NCBI RefSeq assembly: GCF_000429945.1
Contig: NZ_AUCV01000017.1
Span: 1-64,000 of the forward strand
Direction: 5' to 3'
DNA from: Desulfogranum japonicum DSM 18378
GTDB lineage: Bacteria; Desulfobacterota; Desulfobulbia; Desulfobulbales; Desulfobulbaceae
DNA: 64,000 nt
In this document: positions 54,205 through 61,422 of the stretch, piece after piece
Layout of the letters: each line of letters opens with the position of its first letter
Position numbering within the stretch: the stretch's first letter is position 1
Program-made: the position numbers and the translations under genes
The notes under the pieces: generated by a model
Database searches by the model: none
Told to the model about the DNA's origin: nothing
Seen by the model: the letters and a program-made list of their open reading frames with translations, nothing else

Positions 54205-56163
54205 TTATGATTGTAGAAAATGGTTGATCGCTTCAATCGGTGTATTGAGCAATTCGGCCATGGTAACTGCGGTAATCAGGGCACGGGCGGCATGCGTACC
54301 AACGGCTTCCCGTGTACAGGTATATGTAGTGTTACCGGTGCGAAGAATGCCTTGCGACAGCTGGTTGTCCAGAATGACATGGGGTGCGTGCCGGGCAGCT
54401 GCCATGGTGTTGGTAAAAGGATCATCCCCGATCCAGAGCAATCTTTCCGGGGGGAGCTTGGCTGTAATATGCTCGATACCTTTGGTAATGGCAGGGTAAT
54501 CTAAATGTGGGTCAGCCTCTATGCCGCTGACAATAAGCCAGTCGGGAACAGCAATGTCCAGAAGACTTTCAGCATCCTTTTGAGAGCGGATGCCATATTC
54601 AAAAATGAGTATATCTGCCTTTTCTTTCCCCCAGATAGCCTGCCTGGCAAGGGACAGAGGAAAAAAGAGTTTTTCCGGGATAGTTTTCGGCTTTTTCAGG
54701 CATAAAATGGAGAGCGGTAGCCCTACCTCGGTATTATAGGAGAGCAGCGTGCCCCGGGTTTTGTTCACGGAACTGAGCAGCTCAACCATGGTCCTCTTGA
54801 GAGTTGTTTTTCCCTTGATACCTGTAATGCCGATAACCAGCGCTTTATTTTGCCTGAGATAGTGACGACTGGCAAGGGCTAGAATCAGGCGGGCACCTTT
54901 TCCCATCAATGTGTGACCGGTTGGTTCTGGAGTTGCAGGCCGGGAATTTTTTACAGGGATTGTCTTATGCTGTCTTTGCCGGGGTTGGCGTTGAAAGAAG
55001 TATCCCTCAAGCCGGTCAAAACCTCTTTCCAGATCCTCCAGCTCCCGGCCGAAGTTAATGCGAATATGTGACTCGCCGGATGGTCCAAAGGCTATGCCGG
55101 GTACTGTAGCCACCCCCACTTTGTCGAGAATATCATAGGCCAGTCGATGGCTATTTTCGCTGTATTTGACAATATCTTTGATTCTGGGAAAGACAAAATA
55201 CGTTGCCTTGGGGACCTGGTAATCCATGACCTGAGACAGCTCGTCCAGCCGGGTGATGCAATAGTTTCGACGTTTTTTGAATTCAGTTCGGAACTCTTCA
55301 AGAAAATCAGCTCCGTACCGAAGCGCACCGATAGCAGCGTATTGCGAGGGTACCGGCGCACAGGTGACCATGGCATCGTGAAACTTGACAATGCGGCTTA
55401 TCCGCTGTTTGTCGGCGTGGACAAAGCCCACCCGCCAGCCGGTCATGGCATAGGCTTTGGAAAATGAACAGGCGCGAATGATTCTCTCCCTGGCTTCGGG
55501 AATCTGGGTGGCTGAAAAATGGGGCTCATCCACATAATAAAAGTCTTTGTAGACCTCGTCGATGAGTATGGTTAGATCATGCCGTTCGCAGATTTGTACC
55601 AGGTGTTCGGTTTTTTCCCTGGAAAATAGGGTGCCGGTGGGATTGTTGGGGCTGCAGAACAGGAGAAGTTTCGTCTTTTTATTGATTTTCCGTTCAATTC
55701 GCTCTACCTGAAAATCAAAGTTGTTTTCCTCGTCCAGCTCAACATATCGCGGTATGCAGCCGGCAATGGATACTGCTCCCAGATAGGAGGTGTAGGAGGG
55801 GCTGGGCAGCAACACTTCATCGCCAGGCGAAGTGAAGGCCAGCAAGGTCGCGGTAATGCCTTCGATGGAGCCTGCGGTCACCAGGATTTCACGATCCGGG
55901 TCATAGGACAACCCGTCCGCTTCCAGTGAAAGTGCGATTTCCTCCCGTAATTCGGTAAGTCCTGTAGTCAGTGAGTATTTGTCACAGAGACCTGCAGCGA
56001 TTTTTTCCTGGGCAAAGCGGATGACACGGCGCGGAGTGCGGAAGCTTGGAATACCCTGAGCCAGGGAGACAGCGTCAGGCACACGTGAAGCTGCCAGTTC
56101 CATGGCTTTTATAGGGGACAGCTCAAATTGATCAGAAGGTGACGATTTAACCTGAAAGCTCAT
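54205..56163 (-). CDS. PLP aminotransferase fused to a Mur-ligase ATPase domain
   Basis: A 652-residue two-domain protein. Residues 1-390 are a complete class I aminotransferase: LAQGIPSFRTP, FCSPNNPTGTLFS, PLP lysine K236 in SFSKAYAMTGWRVGF, and a substrate Arg in IRINFGRE. After a 35-residue basic/Pro linker, residues 425-652 match the central ATPase domain of MurF-type ligases. These have P-loop GITGIKGKTT (445-454), NTEVGLPLSIL and EYG in place of the ExG motif, and end in THAARALITAVTMAELL. The N-terminal UDP-substrate and C-terminal amino-acid domains of MurF are absent. No frameshift joins the parts. Start ATG 56163 preferred over an upstream TTG. Confidence 0.85.
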   Translation of the reverse strand: MSFQVKSSPSDQFELSPIKAMELAASRVPDAVSLAQGIPSFRTPRRVIRFAQEKIAAGLCDKYSLTTGLTELREEIALSLEADGLSYDPDREILVTAGSIEGITATLLAFTSPGDEVLLPSPSYTSYLGAVSIAGCIPRYVELDEENNFDFQVERIERKINKKTKLLLFCSPNNPTGTLFSREKTEHLVQICERHDLTILIDEVYKDFYYVDEPHFSATQIPEARERIIRACSFSKAYAMTGWRVGFVHADKQRISRIVKFHDAMVTCAPVPSQYAAIGALRYGADFLEEFRTEFKKRRNYCITRLDELSQVMDYQVPKATYFVFPRIKDIVKYSENSHRLAYDILDKVGVATVPGIAFGPSGESHIRINFGRELEDLERGFDRLEGYFFQRQPRQRQHKTIPVKNSRPATPEPTGHTLMGKGARLILALASRHYLRQNKALVIGITGIKGKTTLKRTMVELLSSVNKTRGTLLSYNTEVGLPLSILCLKKPKTIPEKLFFPLSLARQAIWGKEKADILIFEYGIRSQKDAESLLDIAVPDWLIVSGIEADPHLDYPAITKGIEHITAKLPPERLLWIGDDPFTNTMAAARHAPHVILDNQLSQGILRTGNTTYTCTREAVGTHAARALITAVTMAELLNTPIEAINHFLQS

Positions 56164-56329: not shown

Positions 56330-57445
56330 CTATGTTAGCTGTTGAGTAGATCGCACACAATTTTTTCCATCTTTTTTTGCCAGGTAAACTGAATCGTCCG
56401 CTACCTTTATGAGAGCATCCATATTCTCGAGGTCGTCATGGGAACAGGCAACGCCGATACTTACCGAACCCCGCCAGAAGCCTTCACCAGTCTTAATTTT
56501 GAGAGCATTCACCTTTAATTTTGTGTGTTCTCCCACATAAAGTGCTCCTTCCAGACTCGTGTTAGGGCAGATAATAAAGAATTCATCGCCTCCCAGTCTG
56601 CAGACTATATCGTCTGTGCGAACAGCGCACTGGAGTTCCTTTGCCAGTTTTTTGAGAACAATATCGCCAACACCGTGACCCCATGTATCATTAACACCCT
56701 TGAAATTGTCTACATCCACCATAAGGCAGGAGAGAGGCTGGTTACGGAGCCTTGATTCTCTTAAAAGCTTCTCCAGCTGGTTCATAGCAAAACGTCTGTT
56801 GGGAAGTAGAGTCAGGTGGTCGGTTATGGATATAATCTCCAAGGCTTTGTTTGCTTCTGAAAGTTCTCTGGTGCGCTCTATCACTCTTTCTTCCAGGGTG
56901 CGGTTGAGCTCCATCAACGCCTTGTTACGTCTTGATACCAGGGTAAAAAGCGTATTCAGCGCTATTAATAGAGGCTCCGTTGAGCTGCTCGCTTCTTTTT
57001 CTTCCTCCTGGTAAGCTGTTGCGGGCTTTATGCCCTGCCTAATGGCAGCAACTTGCCGAGCCATGTTTTTGTCAGATCCCAAGATATGATAAACAAGCCA
57101 GTGGGTGAGATATTCAAAAAGGGATTGGCAGTCCTCTTGATTGCGGACATCAATGGTTTCAATAAGGTTTGTAACGTCACTGACGAAGTCCCGGTGCTCA
57201 GCCAGGTGCGAGGAGATATGACGCAGATCGACCTGCATGTTGGCCATCAATTCTTCTTCAGTTTTGAAATGGCATTGAGCATATTCTGCCAGTTTATGAA
57301 AAGATTCCATGAGAAAATCTTCGGAAACCGTATGCTCAGACAAGGCCTGACCAAAGGTATTGAGCATGGTAATCAGGGACTGATGTTGCTCATCAACGAG
57401 ATCAAGGCCTGTAATAAATTGTGAACCCCACACAAAAATTTCCAT
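56330..57445 (-). CDS. bacteriohemerythrin-GGDEF diguanylate cyclase
   Basis: A 371-residue sensor enzyme. Residues 1-130 form a hemerythrin domain with all diiron ligands: H21, H59, E63, H80, H84, H120 and D125. A coiled-coil (about 160-195, ending TLEERVIERTRELSEANKAL) links it to a GGDEF domain (about 205-365). That domain has DHLTLLPNRR, VDVDNFKGVNDTWGH and the active site RLGGDEFFII. An RxxD inhibitory site is not obvious. It should make cyclic di-GMP in response to oxygen or redox state. It is monocistronic between the fusion gene and the nickel operon. Confidence 0.95.
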   Translation of the reverse strand: MEIFVWGSQFITGLDLVDEQHQSLITMLNTFGQALSEHTVSEDFLMESFHKLAEYAQCHFKTEEELMANMQVDLRHISSHLAEHRDFVSDVTNLIETIDVRNQEDCQSLFEYLTHWLVYHILGSDKNMARQVAAIRQGIKPATAYQEEEKEASSSTEPLLIALNTLFTLVSRRNKALMELNRTLEERVIERTRELSEANKALEIISITDHLTLLPNRRFAMNQLEKLLRESRLRNQPLSCLMVDVDNFKGVNDTWGHGVGDIVLKKLAKELQCAVRTDDIVCRLGGDEFFIICPNTSLEGALYVGEHTKLKVNALKIKTGEGFWRGSVSIGVACSHDDLENMDALIKVADDSVYLAKKDGKNCVRSTQQLT

Positions 57446-57606: not shown

Positions 57607-58347
57607 TCAACAGTGCTGATGCTCATGGGTGTGGCTGCCCATGGGATGAGCATGTTTATGGTTGTGAATCTCCATCTGTTCACTGAAGGTCAGCTTGCCA
57701 TTTTCCAGGGCAACGTACCCATCTGCCAGCTTGGAGAGCAGGTCCCAGTCATGGGAAATGATGATCATCGGGATTTCCAGAGCTTGCAGGGTTGTGAGCA
57801 ACCTGTTTTTGGCTGTCCTGTCCAGGTCATTGGTAGGTTCATCAAGCAATAGAACCTTGGGATTCATAGCCAGCACAGTAGCCAGAGCGATCATCCGTTT
57901 TTCCCCACCTGAGAGGGTATGGGTTATCCTCTCTATGTAATTTTCCATCCTTAGCAGCTGCAGAACTTCAAGGGCGGTAGCTTTGGCCTGTCTACTGGTT
58001 TGTCCTAGATTCAGAGGGCCAAAAGCCACATCCTCCAGGACTGTAGGGCAGAAGAGCTGGTCGTCGGCCTGTTGAAAGACCATACCGACGGAACGACGCA
58101 ACTGCACCAGGTCTGTATCCGATTGTATGGGGTTTCCCTGGAAGTATACCATGCCGGTTGTAGGTTTTAAAAGGCCGACCAGAAGGTGGAGGAGGGTGGT
58201 TTTCCCACTCCCGTTGTCACCTATCAATCCCATACGGTTGCCGGGAAAAGAGAAATCAAGCTGCTCAAACACGGGTTTGGCACGTTGTTCATAGGAAAAT
58301 GTGACCTTGCGCAACTCAAGAAGAGGGGCTTGTGTGGGGTTTTGCAT
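57607..58347 (-). CDS. nikO: nickel ECF transporter ATPase NikO
   Basis: A 246-residue ATPase. Walker A is GDNGSGKTTLLHLLVG, signature LSGGEKRMIALA, Walker B LLLDEPTNDLD. Unlike most CbiO/NikO it ends in a histidine-rich tail, MEIHNHKHAHPMGSHTHEH, plausibly a metal-binding store or sensor. It is the fifth and last gene of the nik operon and follows nikQ by 5 bases. Confidence 0.93.
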   Translation of the reverse strand: MQNPTQAPLLELRKVTFSYEQRAKPVFEQLDFSFPGNRMGLIGDNGSGKTTLLHLLVGLLKPTTGMVYFQGNPIQSDTDLVQLRRSVGMVFQQADDQLFCPTVLEDVAFGPLNLGQTSRQAKATALEVLQLLRMENYIERITHTLSGGEKRMIALATVLAMNPKVLLLDEPTNDLDRTAKNRLLTTLQALEIPMIIISHDWDLLSKLADGYVALENGKLTFSEQMEIHNHKHAHPMGSHTHEHQHC

Positions 58348-58352
58348 AGGGA

Positions 58353-59144
58353 TTACCAGAAGAAGGAAAGCAGTGTAAGGAGCAGGAAAGTACTGCTGAA
58401 TAAGAGCAGTGACAAAGGCGTTGCCCCGGGAGGGGCCGGTGAGTCAGGGGACAGCATGGGATAGATTCCGGTAAACCCTCGCATAAGCATGGCCTTGTGG
58501 ACCCTTTCAGCCCGTATTTTACTACGGAGAAGGGTCATGGCTATCAGGTATCCGTAGGTACGGTACGTATGGAGGTTCGTACCTGGAACAAACCCACGTA
58601 AAAGAGCTGCCTGATAAAGACGTTGGTATTCTTCCTTGATTACAGCTATGTAACGATAGGTAGCTCCCAGTAGCTGGACAAAGCGGCTTGGTACACGGAG
58701 CTGCTGAAGTCCTCTGCACAGTTCCGGTATGGAAAGAGTGCCGATGAGTGACATGAGGAACAGCATAATACCATTGCTTTTCATGGTGATGATCATGGCT
58801 AAAAACAATCCCTCTTTGTATAGGGACACCCACCCCAGGGTTATGACAGGCGGGCTGGGTGTCTTTGCAAGGGGCAGGGTCAGCCAGAGAAAGAGGATGA
58901 ACAGGTTCAGAGAAAGCAGCCGTTTCAGAACCCACCACGTGTTAAGCCTTCCAAGTATACAATATACAACTGCCAGTATCAGGCCAGCCAGCAGACAGGA
59001 CAGGGACTGGGAAGACGCTAGAACCAGACTGAGTAAACCTGCAGTTACTATCTTCAGGCGCGCATCTACGCGCTCCATCAATGGTGAGTTCAACAACTTG
59101 CTCTGGCTATTTCCACTGGTCAAAGTATAACCAGAGTACTGCAC
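58353..59144 (-). CDS. nikQ: nickel ECF transporter coupling protein NikQ (CbiQ family)
   Basis: A 263-residue membrane T-component. It has four to five membrane segments and the CbiQ coupling motifs [16 protein letters not shown] and [11 protein letters not shown], with the two Ala-Arg-Gly-like ARG/RGF signatures that contact the ATPase. The frame starts with a GTG overlapping nikK by 38 bases. An ATG at 59078 (MERVDARLK) is an alternative start. Partner of NikO. Confidence 0.9.
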
Positions 59145-59937
59145 CCTGTTCCACCTCTTTGGGTGTTTTATCTGGTCCTGGAAGGGTGTAATCAGCTGTG
59201 GTCAGTGCTGCAAAACCCCACCAGCCGGCCTGTGGACAACTGAATGTGAAAACTCCCTGCTCATCGGTTTGTATAACCTGGGTCTCGTGATACTCTGATG
59301 GAAGGGAGAACTGCGCTTCCTGATTATACAATTCCACCTCTACTTCGGTGTTGGCAACGGGTTTGCCGTCTACCAGAACTTTACCGACAAAAGTGTTGCC
59401 CGCGTAATTGCCAAATGGCCTGAGCAGGGGGACAATCTCTGTTTTGAGTCCTATCGGGGTGTCCCAATCGGAGTCATCACCAAAGGCAGCCACCACTGTT
59501 TTTGTGTAATGTATGATATAGACGTCTTCCGCCGGTTCCCAGTAAGGTTCTGGTTCCACGACAAAAGAGTATACTCCGGGTCTGGAGAAAGAATACTCGC
59601 TTTGCCAGCCTTTGTGCTCCATGACTGTGGTTGGTTGCAAGGTACTGAGCAGATCTGTCTGTTCTCCGTTCACAAAAGAAAAAAACTGCCTGGGTTTTTC
59701 CATATCCATCCCGATGCCGGCGAAGGGATGGGAAAAGGATATCTGCAGCGAGGTTGATCGATGTTCCTGGGTGACATGGTTAGTGTCTGGGATGAGCATA
59801 CCAAAATGAGCACATGCTGGATCTGTCTGAAACAGTAAACCTGCAAAAGATAACACACAGAGTGCATGCAAGGTTCCTGAACCAAGGTAACCGGTTACAT
59901 GTTTGTTGCTTTTTGAGTTTGATGTCACTTTATTCAC
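59107..59937 (-). CDS. nikK: nickel transporter accessory protein NikK (DUF4198)
   Basis: A 276-residue exported protein. The signal peptide ends near DPACAHFG, so the mature protein would begin with a His close to the N-terminus. The following beta-sandwich ([40 protein letters not shown]) matches DUF4198/Nik[21 protein letters not shown] and [16 protein letters not shown] form the carboxypeptidase-regulatory-like C-terminal part. NikK and NikL replace NikN in many delta-proteobacterial nickel systems. The start overlaps nikL by 8 bases. Confidence 0.85.
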
Positions 59938-60535
59938 CCTTTTTTCTTTTTTTCGATTGGATAATGAATAACAGGGAAACTATGCCTATAATCCAGCCAA
60001 TTCCACCGATAATTTCCTGTATTCCCGGGCCTTTGTCTTTTTCTTCCATGATCATGCGTTTGAGTGGTTCTATTTCTCTTGAAACCACCTCTTCTACAGC
60101 ACGTATCAGAATTTCGTGGTTGTCATCGTCATGCATCTGTACCGAATCTGTTTGTTCTGCAGGTTGTGCTACAGAGGCAGCTGGCGGTGTGGGGCTTGCC
60201 GTTACTTTTGTTTGCGGCTCCAACAGCCATTTTGCCTGATGGCCCTGACCGGCTTTGAGAATGACCTCGAGTGCAACATGTTGCAGCTCTTCCGGGATGG
60301 GACAACGGTATTCACCTTTGCTGTCAGTTTGTCCCTTGCAGAGTACCTGTTGGTCAGATGGTTGAATAATGACGACTTCAGTGTTTTTGGCCGGACGATC
60401 CTTGCCGAAGTTCCCTTCGACAACGATTTCCTGTCCACTGGTAAAGGCAAATACCCGGACGCGATGTGCGTACGAGTTCTGACTGAATGCACACAAAAGA
60501 AACAGAGCCATGCAGAAGAAAATTCTTAAATACAT
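59930..60535 (-). CDS. nikL: nickel transporter accessory protein NikL
   Basis: A 201-residue exported, membrane-anchored protein. After the signal peptide (cut near NSYAH) comes an Ig-like domain [21 protein letters not shown] with [10 protein letters not shown] and [13 protein letters not shown]. The C-terminal membrane segment [18 protein letters not shown] is followed by a KKRKK tail. This arrangement matches NikL. It stands between nikM and nikK. Confidence 0.85.
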
Positions 60536-60587
60536 TACTTTTATCCCAGGGAAGTTGCTTTTTTATAAACGTTCTGAACAGGGCGGA

Positions 60588-61193
60588 TCAGGAGCAGGGA
60601 GAATGCAGCATGTCTGGTTGGACTTTTTCGAGAAATGAGACCGCAAACAGGGTAACACAGCCTTCAACGAGCATCAGCGGAACATGCAGCCAGAAAAGTG
60701 TTGTTGCACTGTGAATGTATGATTGTCCTGAGGCAAATAAAAAGACGCTGGCCAGGAGAGCTGAGCCGAAAATGGATCCTGCGCCGGCAAGAAAAGCACA
60801 TATCATTTGTTTTTTTCCCGTCTGCTCAATGGCGTTGCGAAACAGATAGTAGACAAGTAAAGCAGGCCCGGCCATAATGACGGTATTGGCCCCCAGGGCA
60901 GTAATCCCGCCAAAACCGAAAAGCACGGCCTGGAGGACGAGAGCAGTCAGTATTACCGGAAACGCAGCCCACCCGAGAAGTAATCCCACCATACCATTCA
61001 AAATGAGGTGAATATTTCCCGGTCCTATGGGCACATGAATGAGTGAAGCTACAAAAAAAGCAGCGGAAAAAAGACCTGCAGTAATAATTTTTTCCTGGTT
61101 GAGTTGCTGTAGGCCTATGGCTGTTCCTATGCAGGCGATAACACCGCTGCCTGCGAGAATAGGAAGGGAGAGAACACCTTCTGTGATATGCAT
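60588..61193 (-). CDS. nikM: nickel ECF transporter substrate-specific component NikM
   Basis: A 201-residue CbiM/NikM S-component. The start MHITEGVLSLPIL gives the Met1-His2 N-terminus needed for Ni/Co coordination in the family, and this decides the start at 61193 over an open frame 72 codons longer. IHVPIGPGNIHLILNGMVGLLLGWAAFP supplies another conserved His motif. About six membrane segments. First gene of the nikM-L-K-Q-O operon, with a NikR box 18 bases upstream. Confidence 0.93.
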   Translation of the reverse strand: MHITEGVLSLPILAGSGVIACIGTAIGLQQLNQEKIITAGLFSAAFFVASLIHVPIGPGNIHLILNGMVGLLLGWAAFPVILTALVLQAVLFGFGGITALGANTVIMAGPALLVYYLFRNAIEQTGKKQMICAFLAGAGSIFGSALLASVFLFASGQSYIHSATTLFWLHVPLMLVEGCVTLFAVSFLEKVQPDMLHSPCS

Positions 61194-61210
61194 GGGAACT
61201 CCGAAATACA

Positions 61211-61237
61211 GTATTACTATAGCTTGGTTCGTAACAC
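61211..61237. promoter_or_regulatory. NikR operator
   Basis: GTATTAC (61211-61217), 13 bases, GTAACAC (61231-61237). This matches 13 of 14 positions of the motif I recall for NikR in Desulfovibrio/Geobacter-type bacteria (GTGTTAC-N13/14-GTAACAC). It lies 18 bases upstream of nikM, positioned to repress it. The nikR gene is not in the window. Confidence 0.85.
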
Positions 61238-61422
61238 TGTATCCGTAGGCTTTGTACCAGTCAAGCATAAAAACGTATAGCAGGGAGCAGTCAATGTATC
61301 CTCCTGCACTTGTCTGTTTGACGGAAAAAAACGAAAAGCCTATACTATAAGTGTGGCTGTAGAGCACAATAAACGTCTGTTTGGCTTCAATAACATGTTT
61401 TAACAACAAGAGGAGGTCTTAT

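Follow-up and report, generated by a model that had tools for sequence, protein, structure and literature searches.

Mur ligases such as MurF combine a central ATPase domain with a UDP-substrate-binding N-terminal domain and an amino-acid-binding C-terminal domain, and the family forms acyl phosphates and amides. In published structures, a first Mg2+ is held by the Thr of the P-loop and a Glu, and a second one by a His and a carbamylated Lys (PMC3060825, PMC3829189). The carbamylated lysine positions Mg-ATP for acyl-phosphate formation (PMC3829189) and is required in MurD, MurE and MurF according to chemical-rescue work cited in PMC9434261. The Mur ATPase domain has also found a use alongside another enzyme, as in the MurT/GatD amidotransferase, where MurT works on lipid II together with a glutaminase. 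MurT has a C-terminal domain, and its catalysis requires its Thr and Glu (PMC6113224). Transaminases that are joined to a second nucleotide-using domain are known from the PtTamH-type transaminase-reductase fusions, where this domain is a thioester reductase (PMC9594044). Here, a protein of Desulfogranum japonicum DSM 18378 is described in which a class I PLP aminotransferase is followed by the central domain of a MurF. The window, i.e. the whole stretch of DNA that was analysed, comprises 64,000 nucleotides of contig NZ_AUCV01000017.1, and all positions refer to it.

Gene and domain organisation

The coding part without the stop codon spans 54208-56163 and gives 652 residues on reverse-complement translation (Table 1). 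From the letters of the DNA, the original prediction had read a single-gene fusion of a complete PLP aminotransferase with a MurF-like central domain that lacks the UDP-binding and amino-acid-binding domains, with the P-loop at residues 445-454 and Lys236 both intact. It gave no strand; the gene was found on the minus strand. The observation of an aminotransferase-Mur fusion is confirmed. The gene is one open frame with full-length homologues in 26 other genomes, the aminotransferase half is matched by the Pfam profile over its full length and has invariant catalytic residues, and both the P-loop and Lys236 were found at these residues. Pfam, hhalign and the fold match agree on the Mur domain. 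According to Pfam, the alignment and hhalign, the C-terminus of the protein coincides with the end of the Mur central domain. Both the UDP-substrate and the amino-acid domain of Mur ligases are absent, and the order is aminotransferase, linker, central domain, end of protein.

Table 1. Features of the fusion gene and its product (positions in the window).
Feature	Position	Strand	Basis
Fusion gene	54205..56163	minus	652 codons and stop, one open frame
Ends of the gene: ATG at 56163, stop codon	54205-54207 (stop)	minus	translation and ORF list
Class I PLP aminotransferase domain, residues 30-385	55009..56076	minus	PF00155, match to 1gd9
Schiff-base Lys236 in SFSKAYAMTGWR	55456..55458	minus	present in all 27 fusions; lines up with the FSK..AMTGWR motif of 1gd9
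Flexible linker, residues 390-425	54889..54996	minus	family alignment and low pLDDT
MurF-derived central (ATPase) domain, residues 426-652	54208..54888	minus	hhalign, PDB profile, fold match to 4cvm
P-loop GITGIKGKTT, residues 445-454	54802..54831	minus	K452 in 25/27, T453 in 27/27 fusions
Glu522, ligand of the first Mg2+ (E. coli MurF E158)	54598..54600	minus	27/27 fusions, 13/13 MurF
Position of the carbamylated lysine (E. coli MurF K202)	54466..54468	minus	I/M/L/V in all 27 fusions; K in all 13 MurF
Family-specific inserted helix, residues ~495-511	54631..54681	minus	merged alignment; helix 84-100 of the Mur-half model

The prediction had also named no characterised protein of this architecture, and none is described in the papers that were searched. 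No paper on an aminotransferase-Mur fusion was found in this literature, which left out most subscription journals. The protein represents a genuine, conserved and undescribed domain architecture made from two known families.

Distribution, origin and selection

Full-length fusions were found in 27 genomes. Of these, 22 belong to another class of the same phylum, four are Desulfogranum (out of seven genomes of the genus), and one is a Desulforhopalus MAG. Within Desulfogranum, the fusion is intact in the window genome and in three of the six other genomes of the genus with 78-79% identity; the carriers include two strain-collection isolates, D. mediterraneum (DSM 13871) and D. marinum (DSM 2058). 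Among 258 genomes of the order, one further fusion was detected, i.e. that of the Desulforhopalus MAG, which has 8% contamination and in which the host of the fusion is not certain. Among 395 genomes sampled evenly across the phylum, one fusion lay outside the order (G311). When 148 genomes of the class of G311 were searched, 22 complete fusions from six families were obtained as well as three that were cut by contig ends. Over the whole length, the fusions of this class are approx. 41-46% identical to the window protein; the aminotransferase half (50-59%) is better conserved than the Mur half (26-31%).

It was looked at whether homologues always appear as two separate genes. The homologues are fused, and no stand-alone copy of the fusion-type Mur half was found in the genomes searched. 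The best non-fused matches to the Mur half reached approx. 20-54 bits and look like ordinary MurF, far weaker than fused or contig-cut copies with 265-484 bits, so that an occurrence as two separate genes is ruled out within the genomes searched. An assembly or frameshift artefact is ruled out by the 27 full-length frames in separate genomes. The 201 sampled Chloroflexota genomes held aminotransferase-only matches and no fusion. A stand-alone aminotransferase at locus L143 (genome G793, sampled as Chloroflexota) scored 433 bits to the fusion profile, with the next Chloroflexota match at 354, and forms a long branch outside the fusion clade. Genome contigs were also scanned broadly with two exact eight-residue motifs, which reach close relatives only. 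In protein searches, no relative of the aminotransferase or the Mur half came up among viral contigs, and plasmid matches to the Mur half, among those listed, were weak and were murF where annotated.

In a maximum-likelihood tree of the aminotransferase halves and of aminotransferase-only relatives, all 27 fusions fell into one clade (support 100/99), and the Desulfogranum group was nested inside it beside family f119 (support 95/92). This tree and the near-absence from the rest of the order suggest one fusion event, followed probably by a later transfer of the fusion into Desulfogranum. As the branches of this tree are long, the transfer is something that we infer. A recent transfer is not supported by base composition, since the GC content of the fusion gene (50.7%; window mean 44.3%, sd 3.8%) is similar to that of nearby genes reaching 50-51%.

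In pairwise comparisons, dN/dS lay between 0.03 and 0.09 in the aminotransferase half and between 0.08 and 0.28 in the Mur half. Judging by these ratios, both halves are under purifying selection; the Mur tail is selected, yet it evolves faster than the aminotransferase half.

The aminotransferase half

The Aminotran_1_2 profile of Pfam matched residues 30-385 with an E-value of 4e-63 and 214 bits (cut-off 19.7), covering profile positions 2-361 of 361. The nearest solved structure is that of the P. horikoshii enzyme 1gd9 (E 2.7e-71). The class I hallmarks, i.e. the Schiff-base Lys, NPTG, the Asp-Tyr and the Arg pair, are all present in the family. N173, D202, Y205, K236, R244 and R368 are invariant in all 27 fusions and sit in motifs that are common to 1gd9. 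The N-terminal half would thus be a working class I PLP aminotransferase that acts on an amino or keto acid. Among the best 25 NCBIfam models, no equivalog matched the window protein over its cut-off. An identity as the gamma-hydroxyarginine cyclodehydratase GntC was rejected with 297 bits on NF041364, below the cut-off of 415. Nothing in the neighbouring genes of two aminotransferase-only relatives, judged by the ORFs, pointed to a substrate.

Family identity of the Mur half

The Mur_ligase_M profile of Pfam matched residues 446-591 with an E-value of 6.7e-6 and 26.6 bits, compared to a cut-off of 24. As this single-sequence match is weak alone, a family profile was built, and in the family context the assignment is secure. 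Four Desulfogranum-type Mur halves retrieved MurF from the PDB in a profile search with an E-value of 4e-11, and a profile of 23 Mur halves did so with 2.5e-20. When the 27 fusions were compared to native MurF central domains, hhalign gave 99.8% probability and an E-value of 4.5e-27 over 236 columns. Modelled on its own with AlphaFold (pLDDT 80, pTM 0.82), the Mur half matched MurF, MurT and MurC structures, best of all P. aeruginosa MurF (4cvm) with Z 18.9 and an rmsd of 3.3 A over 218 residues. The possibility that this half aligns to a non-Mur P-loop family was looked at as well; it is ruled out by the PDB profile hit and the structural match, and membership in the Mur family held. On the NCBIfam murF model, the fusions scored 51.8-64.7 bits, below the cut-off of 288.6.

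Six further Mur-domain matches in the genome of D. japonicum score over the cut-off, and a complete MurE-MurF is among them. The fusion is therefore not the wall ligase of this bacterium, and a replacement of the housekeeping Mur set is ruled out. An Anaerolineae MAG encodes a MurF-like ligase (L025:5371-7095) whose N-terminal region is hydrophobic. This ligase has SYNT instead of the NxNN of MurF, like the fusion, and unlike the fusion it retains the carbamyl-lysine motif. It may be nearer than MurF to the source of the fusion's Mur half.

Residues kept and lost in the Mur half

The P-loop Thr T453, the Glu E522 of the first Mg2+ site, N477 and K456 are each present in 27 out of 27 fusions. 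The P-loop lysine K452 is replaced in two members, by Asn in L083 and by Arg in L109. Where all 13 MurF have the lysine that is carbamylated, the fusions have I, M, L or V without exception. The residue three positions after E522, taken as the position of the compensating Glu of MurC and Mpl, is V, I or L in all of them. The His of the second metal site (E. coli MurF H188) is absent in 22 of the 27, and five Desulfogranum-type sequences have H553 one column off, at a position where the alignment is uncertain by one residue. In the adenine-pocket motif GxHNxxN, H and N are found in 12/12 MurF, and in the fusions they correspond to S/N/H and a variable residue. A helix of ~17 residues is inserted in the fusions after the SYNT region and is absent from MurF; it is a candidate interface.

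Given the roles of these residues in the published structures, the tail looks able to hold a Mg-nucleotide and poorly equipped for phosphate transfer. It also looks to be without a site for the usual Mur substrates. The Asn and Arg at the P-loop lysine, both in open frames, suggest that some lineages can do without nucleotide use, unless they are isolated sequence changes.

The original prediction held that both halves could be active, with the aminotransferase making an amino acid and the Mur half activating or ligating it. For such ligation, the metal site would have to be non-canonical, and the fusion would have to provide an acceptor site. The chemistry of the Mur family, the conserved P-loop and first Mg2+ site and the protein fusion itself, which suggests coupled steps, speak for it. 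The carbamylated lysine required in MurD, MurE and MurF (PMC9434261) is aliphatic in every fusion, however, and no MurC-type Glu stands in for it. The tail also lacks the adenine-pocket His and Asn as well as both substrate domains, conservation does not extend to the second-metal His, the P-loop lysine is changed in two members, and no Mur_ligase_C match was found among the few neighbours scanned. The linker is, moreover, long and flexible. The aminotransferase half or a partner could provide the Mur residues that the tail lacks. On these residues amide ligation by the tail is unlikely, and we regard the model of coupled synthesis and ligation as quite improbable. The interpretation that came with the original prediction is thus partly supported, its ligase part being the one that found no support.

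A pseudo-ATPase scaffold would go further, as the Mur half would no longer use a nucleotide and would serve in protein-protein contacts or oligomerisation only. The MurE-like subunit PAP11 of the plastid RNA polymerase is thought to be such a scaffold module. It is among the structural matches of the Mur half (8r6s_Q, Z 15.9). The substituted P-loop lysines, the loss of the adenine pocket and, apparently, of the second Mg2+ site and the much faster divergence of the Mur half fit this explanation. Yet nearly all members, deeply diverged as they are, retain the P-loop G..GKT, the Glu of the first Mg2+ site and K456, which a pure scaffold would not need. We consider the scaffold somewhat unlikely.

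Linker and genomic surroundings

The linker has 36 residues in the window protein and 29-79 across the family, and it is rich in Pro, Ala and Ser. At L117:4132-6282, it is expanded to 79 residues with a GSI repeat. The full-length AlphaFold model, which was based on a shallow alignment, reached a pLDDT of 65 and a pTM of 0.54 and is too poor for domain placement; over most of the linker its pLDDT is below 50. Because the linker is long, variable and of this composition, a tethered module is favoured over a rigid composite active site. With such a model and such a linker, the other suggestion of the original prediction, namely that ATP gates the aminotransferase, stays hypothetical, as does a packing of the Mur domain against the aminotransferase active site.

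The fusion gene of the window stands alone according to the ORFs read; downstream of it lies a diacylglycerol-kinase-like gene in convergent orientation. In the upstream gene (56330-57445), a hemerythrin domain appears to be joined to a GGDEF domain. Genes at 57607-61409 resemble a cobalt/nickel uptake cluster with a CbiO-like ATPase, CbiQ-like and CbiM-like membrane proteins and two further small proteins. No conserved neighbours were found across the Desulfogranum loci examined.

In the other class, a gene for a CobC-like histidine phosphatase lies less than 50 nt upstream on the same strand in eight loci of four families (L108-L111, L114-L116 and L083; f58, f120, f121 and f122). Three related phosphatase loci add PfkB-like, DprE1-like and DprE2-like genes, and L112 has these three without the phosphatase. 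Such neighbours point to a phosphorylated or sugar-linked substrate. This is a lead and not a proof, because the phosphatase is missing at other loci, i.e. in f119, L112, L113 and Desulfogranum. It was also considered that the Mur half is a small-molecule kinase or phosphate-handling module that works with the phosphatase, so that the substrate of the aminotransferase would be a phosphorylated amino or keto acid. The close upstream position in four families is consistent with this, as is the score of the phosphatase, which with 135-143 bits is just under the alpha-ribazole phosphatase cut-off of 162.9. Given that the phosphatase is not required and that the Mur half has no kinase signature beyond its P-loop, such a module appears very unlikely.

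Proposed function

With moderate confidence, we propose an active aminotransferase that carries a conserved, non-ligating nucleotide-binding or docking module derived from MurF, with a single origin. The Mur half, which retains the P-loop and the first Mg2+ site, would sit on its flexible tether. Its adenine-pocket residues and the two substrate-binding domains are gone, and so, apparently, is the second Mg2+ site. This half would bind a nucleotide, a nucleotide-like ligand or a partner protein as a regulatory or docking module and would itself make no amide bond. The fusion, its conservation, the purifying selection on its two halves and the catalytic residues that are retained or lost can be read from the sequences, while aminotransferase activity, nucleotide binding and this role are what we infer from them; nucleotide binding may not be general, given the two members with Asn or Arg for the P-loop lysine.

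The fusion adds a stable architecture of single origin to two heavily studied enzyme families. In it, a Mur ATPase domain whose ligase chemistry is apparently disabled has been retained among deeply diverged members. Should the tail bind ATP, the fusion would be a simple test case for the conversion of a catalytic domain to a regulator, with the D. mediterraneum and D. marinum isolates at hand. A direct control of aminotransferases by adenine nucleotides through a captured Mur ATPase domain is a long shot; if true, a wall-synthesis domain would have been turned into a sensor of energy or wall status that sets amino-acid supply. For annotators, the fusion tail is not to be read as a cell-wall ligase.

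Comparison with known systems

With the P. horikoshii aspartate/aromatic aminotransferase 1gd9, the fusion shares the full domain, the Schiff-base Lys, NPTG, DEVY and the carboxylate-binding Arg. Unlike such class I enzymes (PF00155), the aminotransferases of the fusions form a clade of their own, and the Mur tail is always present in complete fusion sequences. Common to the tail and MurF (TIGR01143 / PF08245) are the whole central-domain fold, the P-loop TGxxGKT, the Glu of the first Mg2+ site, the DD motif and the conserved Asn of the NxNN (MurF) or SYNT (fusion) motif. Compared to MurF, the tail has an aminotransferase fused to it instead of the UDP-binding and amino-acid-binding domains. 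It has lost the carbamyl-Lys and HNxxN, its second-metal His is not conserved, SYNT replaces NxNN, and it has an extra helix. MurT, with a fold match of Z 17.8, is likewise a Mur ATPase domain working with another enzyme, but in the fusion this partner is the fused aminotransferase and catalytic residues are lost. The PtTamH-type fusions also pair a transaminase with a second nucleotide-using domain; in the window protein, the place of their reductase is taken by the Mur domain.
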